NCBI RefSeq assembly: GCF_900104535.1
Contig: NZ_LT629710.1
Span: forward strand, 3,259,501-3,323,500
DNA from: Nakamurella panacisegetis
Lineage (GTDB): Bacteria > Actinomycetota > Actinomycetes > Mycobacteriales > Nakamurellaceae
Direction: 5' to 3'
Length of the DNA stretch: 64,000 nucleotides
Part shown: positions 14,243-27,070 of the stretch, piece by piece
Layout: the number at the start of each line of letters is the position of its first letter
Numbering within the stretch: the stretch's first letter is position 1
Notes under the pieces: model-generated
What the model was told of the DNA's origin: nothing
Seen by the model: only the letters and a program-made list of their open reading frames with translations
Database searches by the model: none
Translations under genes and position numbers: made by a program

Positions 14243-14295
14243 GGCCATCTTCGCGCGGTGCGCTCGCTGGTAGCGTGGAGGCGTCGACGACCCCC

Positions 14296-14490
14296 CGCGG
14301 GAGAGTCCGGACCAGCACCGACCCGGACGCCGAAGGAGCAAATCTCCCCGCCAAACTCTCAGGCCGCACGAACCGCGAGGGAAAGACACCTCTGGAAAGA
14401 GGGACGCCGGTTCGGTGTCCCCGCCGAAGGGGCAAGCTCGCGGTGACGCGCAGTGGAAGCTCTCAGGTACCGATGACAGAGGGGGAGAGC
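14296..14490 (+). ncRNA. Tandem glycine riboswitch (gcvT motif)
   Basis: Two glycine aptamers lie in series before gcvP. Aptamer 1 (about 14296-14386) has GGGAGAG, the core GCCGAAGGAGCAA and AAACTCTCAGG. Aptamer 2 (about 14387-14490) begins CACCTCTGGAAAGAGGG, then GCCGAAGGGGCAA, GCTCTCAGG and the closing GATGACAGAGGGGGAG. These are the diagnostic elements of the family. Tandem glycine switches of glycine cleavage genes usually turn expression on when glycine is abundant. The 100 bases after aptamer 2 hold no clear U-tract terminator, so control of translation or Rho-dependent termination is possible. Confidence 0.95.
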
Positions 14491-14590: not shown

Positions 14591-17485
14591 ATGAGCCCGA
14601 TCGATCATTCCCGCCCGGCGCACTCCAACTTCGCTGATCCCTCGCCGTTGGACCCGGAGAATTTCGCCGATCGCCACATCGGGATCGACGTGCCCGGCCT
14701 GGCCGCGATCCTGCACGCCCTCGACCAGCCCAGTCTGGACGCGCTGGAACACGCCGTGGTGCCCAAGGCCATCCGGTTCGGCCGCGCCCTCGACCTCCCG
14801 GCTCCGGCCACCGAGACCCAGACGCTGGCCGAGCTGCGGGGGTTCGCGGCCCGGAACAACCCGCTGGTCCAGATGATCGGCATGGGCTACCACGACACCA
14901 TCACCCCGGGGGTGATCAAGCGGAACGTGCTGGAGAACCCGGCCTGGTACACGGCCTACACGCCCTATCAGCCGGAGATCTCCCAGGGCCGGCTCGAGGC
15001 GTTGCTCAACTTCCAGACGGCCGTCTCCGACCTCACTGGTCTGGACATCGCCAACGCCTCCATGCTCGACGAGGCGACCGCGGCGGCCGAGGCCATGACG
15101 CTGATGCGGCGGACGGCCAAGTCCAAGTCCAACCGGTTCGTCGTCGACGCCGACACGCTGCCCCAGACGATCGCCGTCATCCGGACCCGGGCCGAACCGC
15201 TGGGCATCGAGGTGCTGGTGACGGATCTGTACGGCGCCGACGCCGGACTGCCGATCGGTGACTTCTTCGGCCTGCTCCTGTCCTACCCGGGGTCCTCGGG
15301 CGCCGTCCGCGACCAGGAGTCGCTGATCGCCGAGGCGCACAGCCGCGAGGCCAAGGTGACGGTCGCGGCCGACCTGCTGGCCCTGACCCTGCTGCGCGCA
15401 CCGGGAGAGATCGGGGCCGACGTCGCGGTCGGTTCGACCCAGCGATTCGGTGTCCCGCTCGGTTTCGGCGGGCCGCACGCCGGATACATGGCCGTCCGCA
15501 CCGATGTGCAGCGCCAGCTTCCCGGCCGGTTGGTCGGCGTCTCCCACGACGCCGCCGGGAACCCCGCCTACCGGTTGGCCCTGCAGACCCGGGAGCAGCA
15601 CATCCGCCGGGAGAAGGCCACGTCCAACATCTGCACCGCCCAGGTGCTGCTGGCCGTGATGGCCTCGATGTACACCGTGTACCACGGTCCCGAGGGGCTG
15701 CGCCGGATCGCGCAGAAGATCCACACCCAGGCCCGGACGCTGGCCAAGGCGCTGGTCGACGGCGGGATCACGGTCGAGCACGCCGTCTTCTTCGACACCG
15801 TCCGGGCGCTGGTGCCCGGCCGCGCGGCGCGGGTCGTGGCGGCCGCTCGGGAGGCCGGCATCAACCTCTGGGCCGACGGCGACGACGCCGTCCAGGTGAG
15901 CGTCTCGGAGAAGACCAGCGCCGCACACCTGGATGCCGTCGCCGCCGCCTTCGGTGTGCGGCACGATCCGTCGCCGGTGGTCGTCGGCATCAGTGCGCCG
16001 CTGGCCCGGACCACGCCGTTCCTGCTGCACCCGGTGTTCCACGAGCACCGTAGCGAAACCGCGATGCTGCGCTACCTGCGGCGGCTCTCGGACATGGACC
16101 TGGCGCTGGATCGCAGCATGATCCCGCTCGGTTCCTGCACGATGAAGCTCAACGCCACGACCGAGATGGAGGCGGTGACCTGGCCGGAATTCGCCGGGCT
16201 GCACCCGTTCGCGCCGGTGGAGGACGCGGCCGGGCTGTTGGAGCTGATCGATCAGCTGGAGCGCTGGCTGGTCGAGATCACCGGTTACGCCGCGATCTCC
16301 TTGCAGCCCAACGCCGGTTCGCAGGGCGAGCTGGCCGGACTGCTGGCGATCCGGGCCTACCACCGCTCCCGCGGTGACGACCACCGCACCGTGTGCCTGA
16401 TCCCGGCGTCCGCCCACGGCACCAACGCCGCGTCGGCCGTCATGGCTGGCATGAAGGTGGTGGTGGTCGGCACCGACACCGGCGGCAACATCGACATGGC
16501 CGACCTGTCGGCGAAGGTGGAGCTGCACGGGAAGGACCTGGCCGCGATCATGGTCACCTACCCGTCGACCCACGGCGTCTTCGAGGACACGATCACCGAG
16601 CTGGCGGCTCTGGTGCATGCGGCCGGCGGCCAGGTCTACGTGGACGGAGCCAACCTCAACGCCCTGGTCGGACTGGCCCGCCCCGGCGAGTTCGGCGGCG
16701 ACGTCTCACACCTGAACCTGCACAAGACGTTCTGTATCCCCCACGGTGGCGGCGGCCCCGGGGTCGGTCCGGTCGCGGTGGCCGCGCACCTGGCGCCGTT
16801 CCTGCCGTCCCACTCGCTGGGTCTGGACGGCCCGGGCACCTTCGGGTCCGTCGGTGCCATCTCGGCCGCGCCCTGGGGGTCGGCGTCGATCCTGCCGATC
16901 TCGTGGGCCTACATCCGGATGATGGGCGCGACGGGGCTGCGGCGGGCCACCCTGACCGCGATCGCCTCGGCGAACTACATCGCCCGTCGGCTGGACGAGC
17001 ACTTCCCGGTCCTGTACACCGACGCCGGCGGGTTCGTCGCCCACGAGTGCATCCTGGACCTTCGGCCGATGACCGCGGCGACCGGTGTCACGGTTGACGA
17101 CGTGGCGAAGCGCCTGGCGGACTACGGGTTTCACGCGCCGACGATGTCGTTCCCGGTGGCCGGCACGCTGATGGTGGAGCCGACCGAGAGCGAGGACCTG
17201 GCCGAGATCAACCGGTTCTGCGAAGCGATGATCGCCATCAAGGGCGAGATCGACCAGGTCGGGGCGGGCGTCTGGCCGGTCACCGACAATCCGCTCCGTG
17301 GTGCCCCGCACACCGCCGAGTCCCTGGTGGGGGAGTGGACCCACCCGTACTCCCGCGCCGAGGCGGTCTTCCCGCCCGGGGTGGTCGCCGCGCGTAAGTA
17401 CTTCCCGGCCGTGGCCCGGATCGACGGTGCGTTCGGTGACCGGAACTTGGTCTGCTCCTGCCCGCCGGTGGAGGCGTACGCGTAG
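14591..17485 (+). CDS. gcvP: Glycine dehydrogenase (decarboxylating), P protein
   Basis: A 964-residue single-chain P protein of the glycine cleavage system. PLP-dependent, it decarboxylates glycine and passes the aminomethyl group to lipoyl-GcvH. The pyridoxal lysine is K712 in [17 protein letters not shown]; the N-terminal FADRHIGID and the [17 protein letters not shown] motif are family landmarks. Length is standard. It is preceded by a tandem glycine riboswitch and stands alone, with gcvH 5 kb upstream. Its last five codons (EAYA and the TAG stop) are the first bases of a 63-base tandem repeat that continues downstream. Confidence 0.97.
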
Positions 17486-18754: not shown

Positions 18755-20638
18755 TCAGGGTGCAGTCAGCCCGCTCAGGGTGGATTTCAGGGTCGACAGG
18801 TCGGTCAGCTGGGTGTACTTGCCGCCTCCGGCCGCGGCGACCTGCGACATGGCATCGGCGCTGACGTCGGCCGACAGTCCGACGATGTCCAGGACCACGT
18901 TCTTGTTCTGGGCGGCCAGCGCCGAGACGTCGGCGATCAGGGCCGCTCGGGACAGGCCAGGGGTGGTGTCCTGGCCGTCGGTGACGACCACCACGCGGTT
19001 CGGCCGCCCCGCGACGGCGGAGTCGACGGCGTCGGCGTAGGCCGCCTTGATCGCCCCGTACGTCCAGCTGTCTCCGCCCGGAGTCAGGGCGTTGACCGCA
19101 CTGGTGATGGCCGCTGCGCGGGTGCCGCCCGCGATGGAGTCGGTCAACGGGCCGAGCGGGACCCGTTTCGTGTAGCCGGAGGATCCGTCATCGGTCGAGA
19201 ACGACCACAGGCCGAATTGATCCGACGGGCTCGCACCGATGACGGCGTTGACGGCCGACTGCATCCAGGTGATGCGCTGCTGGTTGCCCTGGACCGTGTC
19301 CATCGAACCGGACGTGTCCAGCACGAGCGTGACCGCCGGACCGGCGGCCGCCGGTGTCGTCTTGACGGTGGGGGTTGGCTTGGTGGTTGGTGCCGTCTTC
19401 GTCGGCGTTGTCCGCGTGGTGGCCGGCGCGGTGGTGTTCGGCGTCTTGGTCGGGGTGCTCGTCTGAGCCGGCGTCGGGGTCGTCGTCACGGTCGGCGCGG
19501 TGGCGGGAGCAGAGGAAACCGGCAAAGTAGCGGACGACGGGCTCGGATCGGCGGAGGGCGACGTGGACCCCGACGCGGCCGCCCACGCGCTCTGCAACGC
19601 GGTACGGGTCTGGGCCGGGGCGTCGGGCAGGGCAATGACCTTCGTCGTCAGGTCCACTCCCGGGACAGTGGTGGAGGCGGCCGATGTCCGCAGATGGTCG
19701 GCGGCCAATACGGCCAGTCCTTTCGCGTCGCTCAGGAATCCGTCGAAGGCGGCCGCGGCGTCGGACATGGCGTTGGTGACCCAGGTGGCGGTCAGTGGAA
19801 TCGGGATGATCTCGTCTCCGGCGGTCGGCCCGGTCGGGTACACGGCGGTGAGCGGGGTCGAACTGGTGGCGTTGTAGGACCCGAGCTGGGACTCGAGCAC
19901 CGGGACCGCGGTGTAGCCACCCGTCCCGGCGGCCAGACCGGCGAGGGCGGCCGCTGTGGTGTCGGGTGCCCCGGTCGAGGCGCCGGCGAGCCGTTGCAGC
20001 GTCGATGACGCTCCCGTCACGGCGGCGTCATCGATCGCGGTGGTCCGTCCATTCGAAGCCGCGACCAGCGACTCCAGTGCATCGACCGACGCCCGGTTCG
20101 CCTTCGGGTCGGGGACGGCCAGCACCAGCGACGACGTGCCGTCGGCCAGCGAGGACCAGCTGACCGCGGTGGACGGAGCGGCACGGACCGCCAGGACCAC
20201 CGGCGAGGTACCCAGCGGCGTGTTGGTGTGCCCGGCCGTCATGGCCGAGCGACTGGCATCAACCAGCTTGACGTCGCTCGTCGTGTCGACCACCCAGAGA
20301 CCGGGCGCCGGCGTCGACTGACCCGTCCATCCACTGGCCAGGGCGGCGGCCGCTTCGGCGCCGTCCGTGGTGGTGACCGACACCGACACGCAGGTCGACC
20401 GAGCGACCGGCGCGGTCGCGTTGAAGGCGGCGGCGGCATCGGTGACGGCCTTCGCCGCGCCCGGGGAGGCCGTGACCGGAAGGACGGTGCTACCGGTGCA
20501 GGCGGCGGTCTTCTTGCCCGGATCGATGATGACGAAGTAGGCCGTGGTGAGGCCGGCGACGAGCAGGACGGCGACCGCCACCACGATCGGCCAGGCCGCC
20601 ACGCGGCGACGGCTTTCCGCGTTCGCGTGGCGGCCCAT
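18755..20638 (-). CDS. Membrane-anchored binding-protein-like / VWA domain protein
   Basis: A 627-residue protein. A short basic N-terminus leads into one membrane segment (about 16-37, WPIVVAVAVLLVAGLTTAYF). Residues about 45-350 resemble an extracellular solute-binding fold (VLPVTASPGAAKAVTDAAAAF, LWVVDTTSDVKLVD). A linker of about 75 residues rich in Thr, Pro, Ala and Ser follows (about 360-435), then a von Willebrand A domain (about 436-627) with an intact metal site DTSGS at 441-445, the conserved threonine in LTPGGDSWTYGAI and VVVTDGQDTTPG. VWA domains bind protein partners through a metal ion. A second gene of this layout lies at 50211-52037. It is divergent from pspA across 383 bases. 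Confidence 0.85.
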   Translation of the reverse strand: MGRHANAESRRRVAAWPIVVAVAVLLVAGLTTAYFVIIDPGKKTAACTGSTVLPVTASPGAAKAVTDAAAAFNATAPVARSTCVSVSVTTTDGAEAAAALASGWTGQSTPAPGLWVVDTTSDVKLVDASRSAMTAGHTNTPLGTSPVVLAVRAAPSTAVSWSSLADGTSSLVLAVPDPKANRASVDALESLVAASNGRTTAIDDAAVTGASSTLQRLAGASTGAPDTTAAALAGLAAGTGGYTAVPVLESQLGSYNATSSTPLTAVYPTGPTAGDEIIPIPLTATWVTNAMSDAAAAFDGFLSDAKGLAVLAADHLRTSAASTTVPGVDLTTKVIALPDAPAQTRTALQSAWAAASGSTSPSADPSPSSATLPVSSAPATAPTVTTTPTPAQTSTPTKTPNTTAPATTRTTPTKTAPTTKPTPTVKTTPAAAGPAVTLVLDTSGSMDTVQGNQQRITWMQSAVNAVIGASPSDQFGLWSFSTDDGSSGYTKRVPLGPLTDSIAGGTRAAAITSAVNALTPGGDSWTYGAIKAAYADAVDSAVAGRPNRVVVVTDGQDTTPGLSRAALIADVSALAAQNKNVVLDIVGLSADVSADAMSQVAAAGGGKYTQLTDLSTLKSTLSGLTAP

Positions 20639-21021
20639 CGAAACCTCTTCTCTGTGCGCCGGGGCGGCGCGGGACGGCCTGGGGTGGTCAGCGGGGGTGT
20701 GCCCATGATCGGCGTGGACCCCAACTGTAGCCAGACGTCAACGGGCCGGCGTGTCCCGGCGTTCCTGACGCCCGGACATTTGACGGTTGCCGGCCGATCC
20801 CGATCGCTGCTCCGACAGCGCGCGTCAGCCGCTCGGATCCCGCCCCGGGGCTCAGGGTCGGGGTAGGGGCGGTGCCTGGTTTCGGCTGGGGATGATCCGG
20901 AAAATCCACGCTGACCGGGGCCGAAGGTGCAAGCTGGTTCCATCACCTGACACGATGGTGCCCAGTAGGCCGCGGCGTGCCGTCCGGCCAGTAATGCGAA
21001 AGATGCGAGAGGACTCCAGCG
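20639..21021. promoter_or_regulatory. Divergent region between the VWA gene and pspA
   Basis: A 383-base gap between divergent genes, with promoters for both. An inverted repeat CCATC-N9-GATGG lies at about 20940-20958 and a TTGACG hexamer at about 20780; neither can be assigned with confidence. No gene was recognised. GAGAGGA just before 21022 is the pspA ribosome-binding site. Confidence 0.35.
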
Positions 21022-21831
21022 ATGGCCAACCCATTCGTCAAGGGATGGAAGTACTTGATGGCGCTGTTCTCGTCGAAGGTGGACGAGTACGCCGATCCGA
21101 AGGTGCAGATCCAGCAGGCGATCGAGGATGCGCAGCGTCAGCACGCCGCCCTCTCCCAGCAGGCGGCCGCGGTGATCGGCAACCAGCGTCAGCTGGAGAT
21201 GAAGCTGACCCGCCAGATGGGCGACGTGGAGCGGTTCCAGGCCTCGGCGCGTCAGGCGCTCGTGCTGGCCGACGAGGCGCGGGCCAAGGGCGACGCGGCC
21301 AAGGCGGCCCAGTACGAGCAGACCGCCCAGACGTTCGCCACTCAGCTGGTGGCCGCCGAGCAGCAGATGGAAGACCTGAAGACCATGCACGACCAGGCCC
21401 TCCAGTCGGCCGAGCAGGCCAAGAAGGCCGTCGAGAACAATGCGATGGCCCTGCAGACCAAGCTGGCCGAGCGCACCAAGCTGCTCTCCCAGCTGGAGCA
21501 GGCCAAGATGCAGGAGCAGGTGTCGGCGTCGCTGAGCTCGATGTCGCAGCTGTCCGCGCCGGGCAACACCCCCTCGCTGGACGAGGTCCGCGACAAGATC
21601 GAACGTCGCTATGCCAACGCCCTGGGATCCGCCGAGCTCAGTCAGAACTCGGTCGAGGGCCGCATGCTCGAGGTGCAGAAGTCGACTCTCGACATGGCCG
21701 GCGCGTCCCGCCTTGACCAGCTGCGCGCGCAGCTGCACCCTGAGCTGTCCGGCCAGCAGGCGCGGGCCATCGATCAGTCAGCGACCGCCGCGCCGGCGAG
21801 CCCGGGGATCGACATCAACAAACAAGGCTGA
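21022..21831 (+). CDS. pspA: Phage shock protein A (PspA/IM30 family)
   Basis: A 269-residue ESCRT-III-like membrane-remodelling protein that coats and stabilises a damaged cytoplasmic membrane. After an amphipathic start ([20 protein letters not shown]) it is almost entirely coiled coil, with many Gln, Ala and Glu residues ([20 protein letters not shown] onward) to about residue 230, then a flexible tail. The length and the [13 protein letters not shown] motif are typical of the family. In mycobacteria PspA works with PspM and PspN under ClgR; here the next gene, overlapping by one base (TGATG), is PspM-like. Confidence 0.93.
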
Positions 21832-22673
21832 TGGGGATCAAGCCCACCGCCCGCGCCCTTCGGAACTCGGTTCTCAAGGGCGCTGCCGGGCCGACCGTGG
21901 CCAGTGCGCTGTCCCGTGGCGTGGAGACGGCCGGGCAGGTCGGCGCCAGTGCGGCCGAGTTTTTGCGAGTCCGCCGCGATCCGGCCGAGGTGGCGCGCCG
22001 CCGACACCGGGCCGCGGTGCGCCGGGCCAACATCTGGGGCGCCGGGACGGCGATCGGGGTGGCCGGGGGAGCGGCCGTGACCGTGGGGCTGGTCCGGGAC
22101 GGTGTGACCGTGTCGGCAGTGTTCGCCCTGATCCTGTTGCTGGCGTTGACCGTCTGGTGTGCCCTCGGCCTCGTCCGGGCGCTCCGCACCGTGCGGGCCA
22201 AGGCCCGCATCGTCCGGGAGCTTCCGCCACCGGCGCCCGCTCGGCGTCCGGTGGCCTCGGCCATCCGGGCCGAGATCGCCCGGCTCGACTCCTATTCGGA
22301 CGGCCTGCGCGAACTGATCCTGCTGATGCCGGACGACCGGAGCGTCGCCGACCTGCGCGGCGACGTCCTCGGCGCGGCCGATGAGGCGGAACGGCTGCTC
22401 CGCCGTCAGGCCAACGAGTTCACTCTGCTGCGCAAGACCGCGGCCGGTCGTGACGTCCCGGCTTCGGTCCAGGCGACTTCGGAGAACCTGGTGGCCCATA
22501 TCCGGTACGGGGTCGAGCACTACGGCCGTCTGGTGTCGGCGGCGACCGACACCGTGGTCGCCTCGGCCCAGCTCAACCGTGCAGTGGCCGATCTGCAGCC
22601 GACCACCGATCGACTGCGCGCCCTGTCGATGGGTATGAAAGAAATCGCTGCCCACGCCCGACCGCCGATGTGA
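21831..22673 (+). CDS. PspM-like membrane protein
   Basis: A 280-residue protein. A basic N-terminus of about 60 residues precedes two hydrophobic segments (about 66-86, NIWGAGTAIGVAGGAAVTVG, and about 93-115, VSAVFALILLLALTVWCALG). The rest is helical and soluble, with the stretch RAEIARLDSYSDGLRELI and a C-terminal helix of repeated hydrophobic residues. Layout and position directly after pspA match the phage-shock envelope-stress protein PspM (Rv2743c) of mycobacteria. Its likely role is to hold PspA at the membrane. It starts within the pspA stop codon. Confidence 0.72.
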   Translation: MGIKPTARALRNSVLKGAAGPTVASALSRGVETAGQVGASAAEFLRVRRDPAEVARRRHRAAVRRANIWGAGTAIGVAGGAAVTVGLVRDGVTVSAVFALILLLALTVWCALGLVRALRTVRAKARIVRELPPPAPARRPVASAIRAEIARLDSYSDGLRELILLMPDDRSVADLRGDVLGAADEAERLLRRQANEFTLLRKTAAGRDVPASVQATSENLVAHIRYGVEHYGRLVSAATDTVVASAQLNRAVADLQPTTDRLRALSMGMKEIAAHARPPM

Positions 22674-22836
22674 CCGGTCCGGCGTTCTCGGCCGGTCGGA
22701 CGCCCCGCGCATTCGAAGGTGTCGGGTCGGGTGAAAGCGGTGCGGTTGAATCGACCGTCATGGCAGACTGCCGATCAGGCGCGCATCCGCGCGCGGACCC
22801 TTCCGATGGGCGTGGACGGACAGGTGAGGGCGGCCG

Positions 22837-24804
22837 GTGGACGTACTGGGCATCGACTTCGGGACGTCCAACACGGTCGCCGTTCTCGCCGGCGACGGAC
22901 GGCCGCCGCGAGTTCTGGCGATCGACGGGATCGGCTGGCTTCCGTCCTGCATCTACGTCGACGACGACGGCACACTGACCGTCGGTCGTGACGCCGAGCG
23001 GAAGGCCCGGCTCGCCCCGGAACGCTTCGAGTCCAACCCGAAGCGCCGGATCGACGACGGGGAGATCCTGCTGGGGGTGCGCGTCGTCCCGGTGGTCGAC
23101 GCGATCGCCGCCATTCTGCGCCGGGTGATCGACGAGGCCCGCCGCCAGTTGAACGGTCGCTCGCCCGACCAGATCAACCTGACCCATCCCGCGCAGTGGG
23201 GAGCGGCGAGGCAGAACATCCTGCTGGCCGCGGCACGGTCGGCCGGCCTCGGTCCGGCGCTGGCCCTGATCCCGGAACCGGTGGCCGCCGCGGCCCATTT
23301 CTCGTCCCTGCCCGGCAAGAGCATGGTGCCCGGGTCGAGTCTGGCCGTGTACGACCTCGGCGGTGGCACCTTCGACTGCGCCGTCGTCGGGTCGACCTCG
23401 TCCGGCTTCACCGTTCTCGCCGAGGCGGGCCTGGCCGACGTGGGGGGCGTCGACTTCGACCAGGCTGTCGTCGACCACCTGGGCCGGACCGTCTCGGCGC
23501 AGGATCCGGCCAAGTGGCAGGCCCTGTCCCGGCCACGCAACTCGGCCGACCGGCGGGGGGCGCGATCGCTGCGGGAAGACGTCAGGGCGGCCAAGGAGAC
23601 GCTGTCCCGATACGCCCAGACCGATCTGCCGCTACCGGACCCGTTCGACGACACCCTGCTGACCCGCAAGGAATTCGAGGGACTGGTGCGGCCGGTGATC
23701 GCGCGGACCGTCGAGGTGCTGGCCGAGACCATCGGCCGGGCCGGGCTGTCCCCGGATCGGCTCGGAGGTATCTACCTCGTCGGCGGGTCCAGCCGCATCC
23801 CGCTGGTGGCCGGGATGATCACCGAACGGCTCGGCGTGGTGCCGACCACCCTGGACCAACCGGAGACCGCGGTGGCGATGGGGGCGGCCCTGATCCCGGC
23901 GACGGGCCGGTCGGGTCAGGGACGCACCGAGTTCCTCGGTGGCCCGGGCGGGGCGGGGCCGACGCCGGGTCCCTCGGCCGCCGGGCCGCAGTGGAGCCGA
24001 CCCGGCCCGCCGCAGCCGGCCGGCGCGCAGCATCCGCCGCCCGGGCCGGCCTTCACCGGCTCTCCGGGGGCCTATGGCCCGGCCGGCGCGCAGTATCGGT
24101 CCGGTCCGCAACCGGCGGTACCGTCCGGAACCTCCGATCGCAAGAAGCGGAACCGCATGATCCTCATCGCGGTTGCGGTGGTCGCGATCCTGGGCGCCGG
24201 GGCCGGCATCGTGATCGCCACCCAGTCGAACTCCAGCGCGGACGGGCCGACCTCCAGCCCGGCCTCCAGTCCGGCCGTCTCGGCCGGCACCTCGACTTCT
24301 CCGGGGACCACCAGGACCTCGCCGAACTCCAGCCGTACGACTCCGTCGGGTTCCTGCGCCACGACCACGGACGCGACCGGGGTCACCGACTGCATGAAAC
24401 CGATGCTCGGCAAGCTGACCGAGTTGAAGTGCTCGAAGAACACCCAGGCACTCGGCCTGACCGAGGACACCATCAAGTACATCGAGACCGTCACGACCGC
24501 CTGGACCGCCTGCATCGACGAATCGGCCGGCTACGCCGCGGTCATCTTCCAGGGCACCAACGCGACCGGCCGGGACACCCTTTGGTCGTACGTGCTCAAG
24601 CAGTTCACCGAATCGCGCAAGGGCAACTGGACGGCCGCCGACGGGTCGGGCCGGTACTCCGCCGGAACGACTTCGAGCGACGTCTCGCTGGTGGCCTGGG
24701 AGGATGCCAACCTGCCGGTGGTGGCGTTCATGGGTGCCTCCGGCGGCGTCGACGCGCTGATCTCGTACTGGAAGGGCGAACTCGGCGCCACCGTCACCAG
24801 CTGA
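22837..24804 (+). CDS. Membrane-anchored Hsp70-like protein
   Basis: A 655-residue protein with an actin/Hsp70 nucleotide-binding domain at about 1-365 (phosphate-1 GIDFGTSNTVAVL, phosphate-2 VYDLGGGTFDCAVVG, adenosine LVGGSSRIPLVAGMI). The canonical substrate-binding domain and lid are absent. Instead a Gly/Pro-rich linker (about 370-435) leads to one membrane segment (about 441-462, MILIAVAVVAILGAGAGIVIA), a Ser/Thr-rich stalk and an extracytoplasmic domain of about 150 residues with four cysteines (SGSCATTTD, VTDCMKPM, LKCSKNT, WTACIDES). Starts at GTG 22837. Placed after pspA and the PspM-like gene it suggests a cytoplasmic ATPase coupled to an outside sensor or ligand. Chaperone activity is not shown. 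Confidence 0.88.
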   Translation: MDVLGIDFGTSNTVAVLAGDGRPPRVLAIDGIGWLPSCIYVDDDGTLTVGRDAERKARLAPERFESNPKRRIDDGEILLGVRVVPVVDAIAAILRRVIDEARRQLNGRSPDQINLTHPAQWGAARQNILLAAARSAGLGPALALIPEPVAAAAHFSSLPGKSMVPGSSLAVYDLGGGTFDCAVVGSTSSGFTVLAEAGLADVGGVDFDQAVVDHLGRTVSAQDPAKWQALSRPRNSADRRGARSLREDVRAAKETLSRYAQTDLPLPDPFDDTLLTRKEFEGLVRPVIARTVEVLAETIGRAGLSPDRLGGIYLVGGSSRIPLVAGMITERLGVVPTTLDQPETAVAMGAALIPATGRSGQGRTEFLGGPGGAGPTPGPSAAGPQWSRPGPPQPAGAQHPPPGPAFTGSPGAYGPAGAQYRSGPQPAVPSGTSDRKKRNRMILIAVAVVAILGAGAGIVIATQSNSSADGPTSSPASSPAVSAGTSTSPGTTRTSPNSSRTTPSGSCATTTDATGVTDCMKPMLGKLTELKCSKNTQALGLTEDTIKYIETVTTAWTACIDESAGYAAVIFQGTNATGRDTLWSYVLKQFTESRKGNWTAADGSGRYSAGTTSSDVSLVAWEDANLPVVAFMGASGGVDALISYWKGELGATVTS

Positions 24805-24868: not shown

Positions 24869-25078
24869 ATGCGCCTCACCGAGTTCCGTGCCCTGATGAC
24901 GGCCCATTTCGGGACGCACAGAGCCGCGTCGGTGGCGGCCGACCACGTGTTCGGCTCGCTGGGTGGACGGACCGCCGACGAGGCGTTGAACGCCGGCGAG
25001 AACCCGAAACGGGTGTGGCGGATCGTCTGCGAGACGTTCGACGTCCCGGCGGAATTGCACCACGGTCTGCCGGACTGA
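24869..25078 (+). CDS. DUF3046 small protein
   Basis: A 69-residue protein of the actinobacterial DUF3046 family, almost always encoded just upstream of recA (Rv2738c in M. tuberculosis). Landmarks are MRLTEFRALMTAHFG, LGGRTADEALNAGENPKRVW and the end DVPAELHHGLPD. An in-frame ATG 24 bases upstream exists, but the ATG at 24869 gives the family N-terminus. Function unknown. Confidence 0.9.
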   Translation: MRLTEFRALMTAHFGTHRAASVAADHVFGSLGGRTADEALNAGENPKRVWRIVCETFDVPAELHHGLPD

Positions 25079-25330: not shown

Positions 25331-26368
25331 ATGTCGGCACCGGATCGTGAGAAAGCACTCGGCATCGCGCTAGCGCAGATCGAGAAGCAGTTCGGCAAGG
25401 GATCGGTGATGCGCCTCGGTGACGAGGGTCGCGCACCGGTGGAGGTGATTCCGACCGGCTCGATCGCGCTGGACGTGGCGCTCGGCATCGGTGGTCTGCC
25501 CCGTGGGCGTGTGGTGGAGATCTACGGCCCGGAATCCTCGGGCAAGACGACGGTCACCCTGCACGCGGTGGCCAGTGTGCAGGCGGCCGGCGGTATCGCA
25601 GCCTTCATCGACGCGGAGCACGCCCTGGATCCGGAATACGCCAAGGCGCTCGGGGTCGACACCGACTCGCTGCTGGTGTCTCAGCCGGACACCGGCGAGC
25701 AGGCGCTGGAGATCGCCGACATGCTGATCCGGTCCGGCGCCATCGACCTGGTCGTGGTCGACTCGGTCGCCGCACTGGTGCCCCGGGCCGAGATCGAGGG
25801 GGAGATGGGCGACAGCCACGTCGGTCTCCAGGCCCGCCTGATGTCGCAGGCGCTCCGCAAGATCGCCGGTGCCCTCAACAACACCAACACGACGATGATC
25901 TTCATCAACCAGCTGCGCGAGAAGATCGGCGTCATGTTCGGCTCGCCCGAGACCACGACCGGTGGTAAGGCGCTGAAGTTCTACGCTTCGGTCCGTCTGG
26001 ACATCCGCCGCATCGAGGCTCTGAAGGACGGCACCGACGTGGTCGGTAACCGGACCAGGGTCAAGGTGGTCAAGAACAAGATGGCCCCGCCGTTCAAGCA
26101 GGCCGAGTTCGACATCATCTACGGCCAGGGCATCTCCCGCGAGGGTTCGCTGATCGATGTGGGTGTCGAGCAGGGGCTCGTTCGCAAGGCCGGCGCCTGG
26201 TACACGTACGACGGCGAGCAACTCGGCCAGGGCAAGGAGAACGCGCGGAACTTCCTGCGCGAGAACCCGGATGTGGGAGAAGAGATCGAGAAGCGGATCA
26301 AGGAGAAGCTCGGCGTCGGCGCTCGTATCGACGACGACACCGTTGCCCCCGCTCCGGTCGACTTCTGA
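25331..26368 (+). CDS. recA: Recombinase RecA
   Basis: A 345-residue RecA that forms filaments on single-stranded DNA, drives strand exchange and triggers LexA self-cleavage. Walker A is GPESSGKT at 66-73, Walker [11 protein letters not shown] follows, and [16 protein letters not shown] covers loop L2 entry. The protein is full length and uninterrupted: no intein is inserted, in contrast to M. tuberculosis RecA. The frame continues upstream, but ATG 25331 gives the family start [14 protein letters not shown]. An SOS box and a DnaA box lie in the leader. recX follows after 69 bases. Confidence 0.98.
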
Positions 26369-26437: not shown

Positions 26438-27070
26438 ATGAACGACGACGACCGAGAAGAGCGACTTCGAGTCCTGGCCGCGCAGATCGCAGAGGTCGAG
26501 CGGTCTTCGACGGCGGAAGCCCCGGCCCCCGATCGCCCCGTCGGTGGTTCGGCCGCGGTTGGTGAGCAGGTCACCGCGGCGCGCGCGATCTGCCTCCGGC
26601 TGCTGGCCGTGGCCCCTCGTCCGCGGGCCGGGCTCGCACAGGCGATGAAACGCAAGGAAGTACCCGAAGATGTGGCGCAGGACGTTCTCGACTGGCTCAC
26701 CCAGGTCGGTCTGGTCGATGACGTCGCCTACGCGCACAGCTTCGTCCGTACCAAGCACCGCGACCGGGCGCTGAGCAGCGCGGCCCTGCGGACCGAGCTT
26801 CGGCGGCTCGGCGTCGACGACGAATCGATGGCCGACGCGGTCGAGACCGTTGACCAGCAGGCGGAGCGCACCCGGGCGGCGGAACTGATCGCCAAGCGGG
26901 TCGACGCCGCGATGGCGGTCGGTCCGTTGGCGGCCAAACGGCGTCTGCTGGGTCTGCTCGCCCGGCGGGGCTATCCCGCCGACATCGCGATCCCGGTGGT
27001 CGACCAGGCCATCGCCGGCTATCTGGACGGCGGCGATCGGTTCTCGTTGGCATCCTCGGACGCCGTCTGA
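26438..27070 (+). CDS. recX: Regulatory protein RecX
   Basis: A 210-residue RecX, which binds RecA filaments and limits their activity. The three-helix repeats are visible (ARAICLRLLAVAPRPRAGLA, VAQDVLDWLTQVGLVDDVAY, SSAALRTELRRLGVDDESMA, KRRLLGLLARRGYPADIAI). An N-terminal extension of about 45 charged residues precedes the first repeat. It lies 69 bases behind recA in the same direction, as in most actinobacteria, and is probably co-induced. Confidence 0.95.
   Translation: MNDDDREERLRVLAAQIAEVERSSTAEAPAPDRPVGGSAAVGEQVTAARAICLRLLAVAPRPRAGLAQAMKRKEVPEDVAQDVLDWLTQVGLVDDVAYAHSFVRTKHRDRALSSAALRTELRRLGVDDESMADAVETVDQQAERTRAAELIAKRVDAAMAVGPLAAKRRLLGLLARRGYPADIAIPVVDQAIAGYLDGGDRFSLASSDAV

Follow-up and report, generated by a model that had tools for sequence, protein, structure and literature searches.

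The window analysed here is a 64,000-nt stretch of the 5.01-Mb, one-contig genome of the soil actinobacterium Nakamurella panacisegetis (G000:C1:3259501-3323500), in which pspA, pspM, and a gene encoding an Hsp70 protein with a predicted membrane anchor follow one another on the same strand (Table 1). An earlier note had presented these three contiguous genes as a single envelope-stress unit. Their adjacency and common strand hold, as does the reported one-base overlap of the first two genes, the last base of the pspA stop codon (TGA, 21829-21831) being the first of the pspM ATG (21831). The Hsp70 gene, on the other hand, does not overlap pspM and is separated from it by 163 bp, and the block runs on past Hsp70 into DUF3046, recA, and recX, which the note had not included. 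The first two products belong to the expected families: PspA/IM30 by PF04012 (142.6 bits against a cut-off of 33.9), and PspM (Rv2743c) by NF047839 (PspM_Rv2743c; 116.7 against 80 bits) and PF25587 (131.9 against 27.7 bits).

Table 1. Features of the pspA-recX region in window positions, and the cluster of the Hsp70 paralogue elsewhere in the same genome
Feature	Position	Strand	Basis and remarks
VWA-domain protein gene	18755..20638	-	PF13519/PF00092; genus loci compared; divergent from pspA
pspA	21022..21831	+	PF04012, E 1.8e-41
pspM (Rv2743c family)	21831..22673	+	PF25587, E 3.7e-38; NCBIfam NF047839 above cut-off
Intergenic gap pspM-Hsp70, 163 bp	22674..22836	+	promoter-like TGGCAGACT at 22761-22769
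Hsp70 nucleotide-binding domain (NBD), residues 1-356	22837..23904	+	
Gly/Pro-rich linker, residues 357-440	23905..24156	+	without DnaK interdomain linker, without substrate domain
Membrane segment (predicted), residues 441-460	24157..24216	+	hydropathy; RKKRNR ahead
Four-cysteine domain, predicted extracytoplasmic, residues 502-655	24340..24801	+	conserved Cys; structure model
DUF3046 gene	24869..25078	+	PF11248, E 6.2e-28; starts 64 bp past Hsp70
recA	25331..26368	+	PF00154, E 2.9e-144
recX	26438..27070	+	PF21982/PF02631
Paralogue cluster: membrane-anchored Hsp70, dynamin-like, GrpE-like, desaturase, dynamin-like, DUF6802-like	L075:7834-17000 (G000:C1:2224833-2233999)		

Hsp70 is a soluble folding machine whose output passes through its substrate domain. 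The Nakamurella protein shares with DnaK and Hsc70 the whole NBD fold and the active-site residues, and differs from them in lacking both the interdomain linker and the substrate domain. A predicted membrane segment and outer domain stand in their place, and the earlier note had recognized this replacement of the substrate domain. Its match to PF00012 (E 1.9e-37) stops at residue 355, and the protein has the nucleotide-binding motifs DFGTSNT (residues 7-13), DLGGGTFD (173-180), and LVGGSSRIP (314-322). The NBD would be expected to hydrolyse ATP. The protein scores 131.9 bits against the NCBIfam model prok_dnaK, whose cut-off is 822.55, and the DnaK interdomain linker is absent from it in the alignment. 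R167 of DnaK is a J-domain contact, and no Arg occupies that position in the aligned Nakamurella sequence. An MreB-type actin identity was rejected as the weaker match (E 3.6e-9 vs 1.9e-37), and a shortened subdomain IB was dismissed as a special trait of this NBD, the same gap being present in a DnaK-type row (L033). The top hydrophobic stretch in the hydropathy profile is residues 441-460; residues 75-95 are also flagged at a looser cut, but lie within the confidently modelled NBD. By the positive-inside rule, the basic residues ahead of the segment point to an N-inside/C-outside topology. The arrangement is not due to chance, since the NBD is conserved in six other genus members, with identities of 80, 84, and 89% in three of them, 65 and 67% in another two, and 58% in the last.

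The outer domain contains four cysteines (C507, C519, C532, and C559; C6, C18, C31, and C58 of the domain) that are invariant over 18 aligned outer domains and could pair into the two intramolecular disulfides expected of a PknH-like sensor domain. Its structure model (pLDDT 90) may resemble, at a borderline score, the sensor domain of PknH-type receptor Ser/Thr kinases (4esq), in which the cytoplasmic part is a kinase, whereas here it is an Hsp70 NBD. At the sequence level the domain could not be tied to any known sensor family: it matched no Pfam family and the window's copy no PDB sequence at E <= 10, and a profile of the domain (A4) retrieved from PDB caspase-7 chains only, at E 0.73 or worse. 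A weak match to TIGR03931 (T7SS_Rv3446c; E 0.023) covers only Hsp70 residues 442-499 and falls below that model's cut-off (15.1 vs 47.6 bits). A protein search with the window's outer domain returned one protein besides the window's own, and a search with the Amycolatopsis copy at least 94, the query's own included. At class level, the four-cysteine domain turned up in 2 of 296 genomes, namely G000 and G029, each of which had contributed to the profile. Within the genus, the domain is present twice in G014 and G016 and has been lost in G004.

In all 17 Nakamurella genomes compared, recA-recX is preceded by pspA, a DUF3046 match (on the minus strand in G003) falls between the two, and the divergent VWA gene accompanies pspA throughout, making it a steadier neighbour than either Hsp70 or pspM. 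Hsp70 fills the slot ahead of DUF3046 in seven of these genomes, together with pspM in G000, G005, G007, and G013 and without it in G004, G014, and G016; the latter three form a clade (loci L073, L057, and L058, respectively) in which pspM is missing and Hsp70 directly follows pspA. The remaining ten genomes keep pspA-pspM without Hsp70. In one of them (G001) the slot holds an MFS transporter (PF07690, E 3.8e-57), and in another (G008) about 3.2 kb after pspM has no gene assigned from matches among the genus loci. On a genus tree built from RecA, Rny, and PspA, two changes are needed to account for the distribution of Hsp70 and one for the loss of pspM. The adjacency and shared strand in 7 of 17 genomes, and the clade in which Hsp70 stands as if replacing PspM, favour the earlier proposal that PspA, PspM, and Hsp70 act as one unit, with Hsp70 as the outside sensor and PspA as its target within the cell; the ten genomes that do without Hsp70 speak against it.

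The search for the same gene order in other genomes, set beforehand as a test, bears on this proposal more widely. With a cut-off of E <= 1e-60 for both the family NBD and recA, and with distances taken among listed matches only, the NBD was found in 55 of 150 sampled genomes of the order, 47 outside the genus and eight inside. Among those 47, a recA match is present in all and a PspA match in 45. No more than 10 kb separates the NBD from recA in 15 of the 47 (the two are on the same contig in 24 and on separate contigs in 23, G046 among the latter), whereas such a distance from PspA was seen in none of the 45 (same contig in 19, separate contigs in 26), the closest PspA on a shared contig being 54 kb away. 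Fourteen of the 15 recA-linked loci belong to one family (f14), which we take to be Pseudonocardiaceae, and read Lhr helicase (divergent), Hsp70, DUF3046, recA, recX, with no PspA match in any of the 14 and the Hsp70 copy in tandem in L085 and L090. Hsp70 lies 46-611 bp from DUF3046 in 11 of them and 1.6-2.6 kb away in L086, L087, and L089, and Lhr lies 2.4-4.0 kb off in L089, L090, and L096 and less than 0.8 kb in the others. Each of the 14 loci encodes a protein with a strong hydrophobic segment past the NBD, followed by exactly four cysteines that align with the four in the window's protein. The fifteenth locus (G109) holds a distant copy (46%) located 1.4 kb ahead of DUF3046. When 53 NBDs were placed in a tree, one group (92/87) comprised the recA-linked Nakamurella copies and one dispersed copy, and another (100/100) the Pseudonocardiaceae-type copies together with three from Labedaea; the Crossiella copy (L024), whose locus shows Lhr and no recA, was counted with the recA-linked rows. 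Separately, pspA and pspM occur within 6 kb of recA in three genomes of another family of the order (G022, G047, and G055).

The pspA link was seen only in this genus and the recA link is wider, so that the outcome named in the note as refuting its proposal, a gene order found nowhere else, is half borne out. The proximity of Hsp70 to pspA reflects how two recA-linked loci are arranged in this genus and does not show that the products form one complex. The place of Hsp70 upstream of DUF3046-recA in 14 Pseudonocardiaceae-type and seven Nakamurella loci could in turn mean that it works with recA, recX, and DUF3046, for example in membrane-associated DNA repair or SOS signalling. We regard such a role as quite improbable, given that recA anchors many unrelated neighbours, the MFS transporter in the same slot being one case, and that Hsp70 is missing from 10 of 17 genomes of the genus.

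Among the seven Hsp70-bearing genomes of the genus, the leader ahead of the gene ranges over 97-384 bp; outside the window, its length is counted as far as the point where the NBD match begins, which is not a proven start codon. The motif TGRCASACT, chosen after looking, occurs in this gap in five of the seven (0.008 expected under order-1 resampling, with 0 of 5000 resamplings as high) and in none of the ten pspM-DUF3046 gaps without Hsp70. A related box, TG[GA][CG]AGCAT, likewise picked after looking, precedes 12 of the 14 Pseudonocardiaceae-type copies and is not found in G109. These promoter-like elements suggest that the Hsp70 gene has a promoter of its own, which is a further point against one unit. 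Between 20500 and 25600, a sigma-70 scan returned no promoter-like site, and a terminator scan returned three terminator-like sites, against 1.4 expected from shuffled sequence; none of the three marks the end of one of these genes on the strand that encodes it. Upstream of pspA, ClgR and SigE-type boxes were sought and set aside, with none in the window, isolated matches in G012 and G005, and one in the Hsp70 gap of G013. A block like GGTGGAAGCTGG..CACCTGACACGATGG (20926-20958), by eye recurrent in many genus genomes, may be the pspA promoter. Elsewhere in the window, an Rfam scan found two glycine riboswitches and nothing else, a tandem element at 14288-14489 directly ahead of a glycine dehydrogenase gene at 14591; no tRNA was found in the window.

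Compared with the mycobacterial clgR-pspA-pspM(-pspN) arrangement, as given in a Psp survey, the Nakamurella locus shares the pspA-pspM pair and differs in having Hsp70 between pspM and DUF3046-recA (PMC11237479). Directly upstream of pspA lies the divergent VWA gene in place of clgR. The three open reading frames (ORFs) in the VWA-pspA gap gave no Pfam match at E <= 0.1, so clgR is absent there; clgR was not sought elsewhere in the genome. Of 61 genomes of the order, genus included, 42 have a PF25587 match above the cut-off, a broader range for the PspM family than the mycobacteria and corynebacteria named in the survey (PMC11237479). The main text of that survey contains neither "DnaK" nor "Hsp" (PMC11237479), and no description of the present Hsp70 architecture was found among the papers listed on membrane-anchored or transmembrane Hsp70, on Psp or dynamin together with Hsp70, on DUF3046 with recA, or on Hsp70-family proteins in actinobacteria or with recA, which were judged partly by title. 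By title, none of those on anchored Hsp70 dealt with a bacterial Hsp70.

The chloroplast HSP70B discussed next has a substrate domain. Pairing of a PspA-family protein with an Hsp70 does have a precedent in Chlamydomonas, where HSP70B together with CDJ2 and CGE1 builds and takes apart VIPP1 (PMC10602608). This precedent lends the one-unit proposal some weight, but follows a different, J-protein-dependent route, as HSP70B is stromal and uses the J-protein CDJ2 (PMC10602608). The Nakamurella protein, in contrast, is membrane-anchored by prediction, has no substrate domain, and probably works without a J-protein. Taken with the genome comparisons, this leaves the single unit unlikely and the earlier interpretation partly supported.

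A second family member in N. panacisegetis (NBD 66% identical) has two cysteines past its hydrophobic segment (Table 1). Clustered with it are a desaturase, a pair of dynamin-like proteins (PF00350), one GrpE-like protein (PF01025, E 2.8e-9), and a DUF6802-like protein that scores under that family's cut-off. A dynamin-like gene lies near the paralogue in all seven Hsp70-bearing genus genomes and a GrpE-like gene in six; in G007 the stretch holds dynamin only, about 6.5 kb off, and both genes also occur near the paralogue in G045. A close dynamin orthologue (>=72% identity) is found in exactly the seven genus genomes with the recA-linked Hsp70 and in none of the other ten. Because of this cluster and co-occurrence, the family may serve membrane-remodelling machines, with an anchored Hsp70 motor that loosens polymers, those of dynamin-like GTPases in the case of the paralogue and those of PspA in the case of the recA-linked copy. 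We nevertheless think this improbable: the co-occurrence reduces to some two changes when mapped on the genus tree, neither the dynamins nor the GrpE-like protein has a match in the recA-linked loci fetched, three genomes without the recA-linked Hsp70 (G009, G011, and G015) carry distant dynamins (best 36-37%), and the protein has no substrate domain.

The reading that we favour, and to which we would give an even chance, is that the product of the Hsp70 gene is a receptor-like membrane protein with an inner Hsp70 ATPase, a flexible linker, one membrane segment, and a disulfide-stabilised, sensor-like outer domain. The outer domain would most likely bind an envelope ligand or partner, and binding could bias the ATP/ADP state or the clustering of the NBD, which may then bind or release a cytosolic partner, the signal presumably running from outside to inside. 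A GrpE-type exchange factor would perhaps take part, and a J-protein would not. A bolder and rather doubtful proposal is that the anchored actinobacterial Hsp70s without substrate domains are transmembrane ATPase switches running membrane-remodelling polymers, the two-cysteine paralogue with its GrpE-like protein on the two dynamins and the four-cysteine recA-linked copy on PspA where they are neighbours, thereby coupling an envelope sensor to the bacterial ESCRT-III/dynamin counterpart.

As a conserved variant of Hsp70 the family is real; the searches found no description of it, and its link to PspA is local. The corrected neighbour, recA and not pspA, cautions against inferring function from gene order in a single genome, and the paralogue cluster of Hsp70, GrpE-like, and two dynamin-like proteins is directly testable at the bench. 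In a conserved lineage that lacks the substrate domain and has a sensor-like domain on the far side of the membrane, the Hsp70 ATPase would become a signalling or tethering module.
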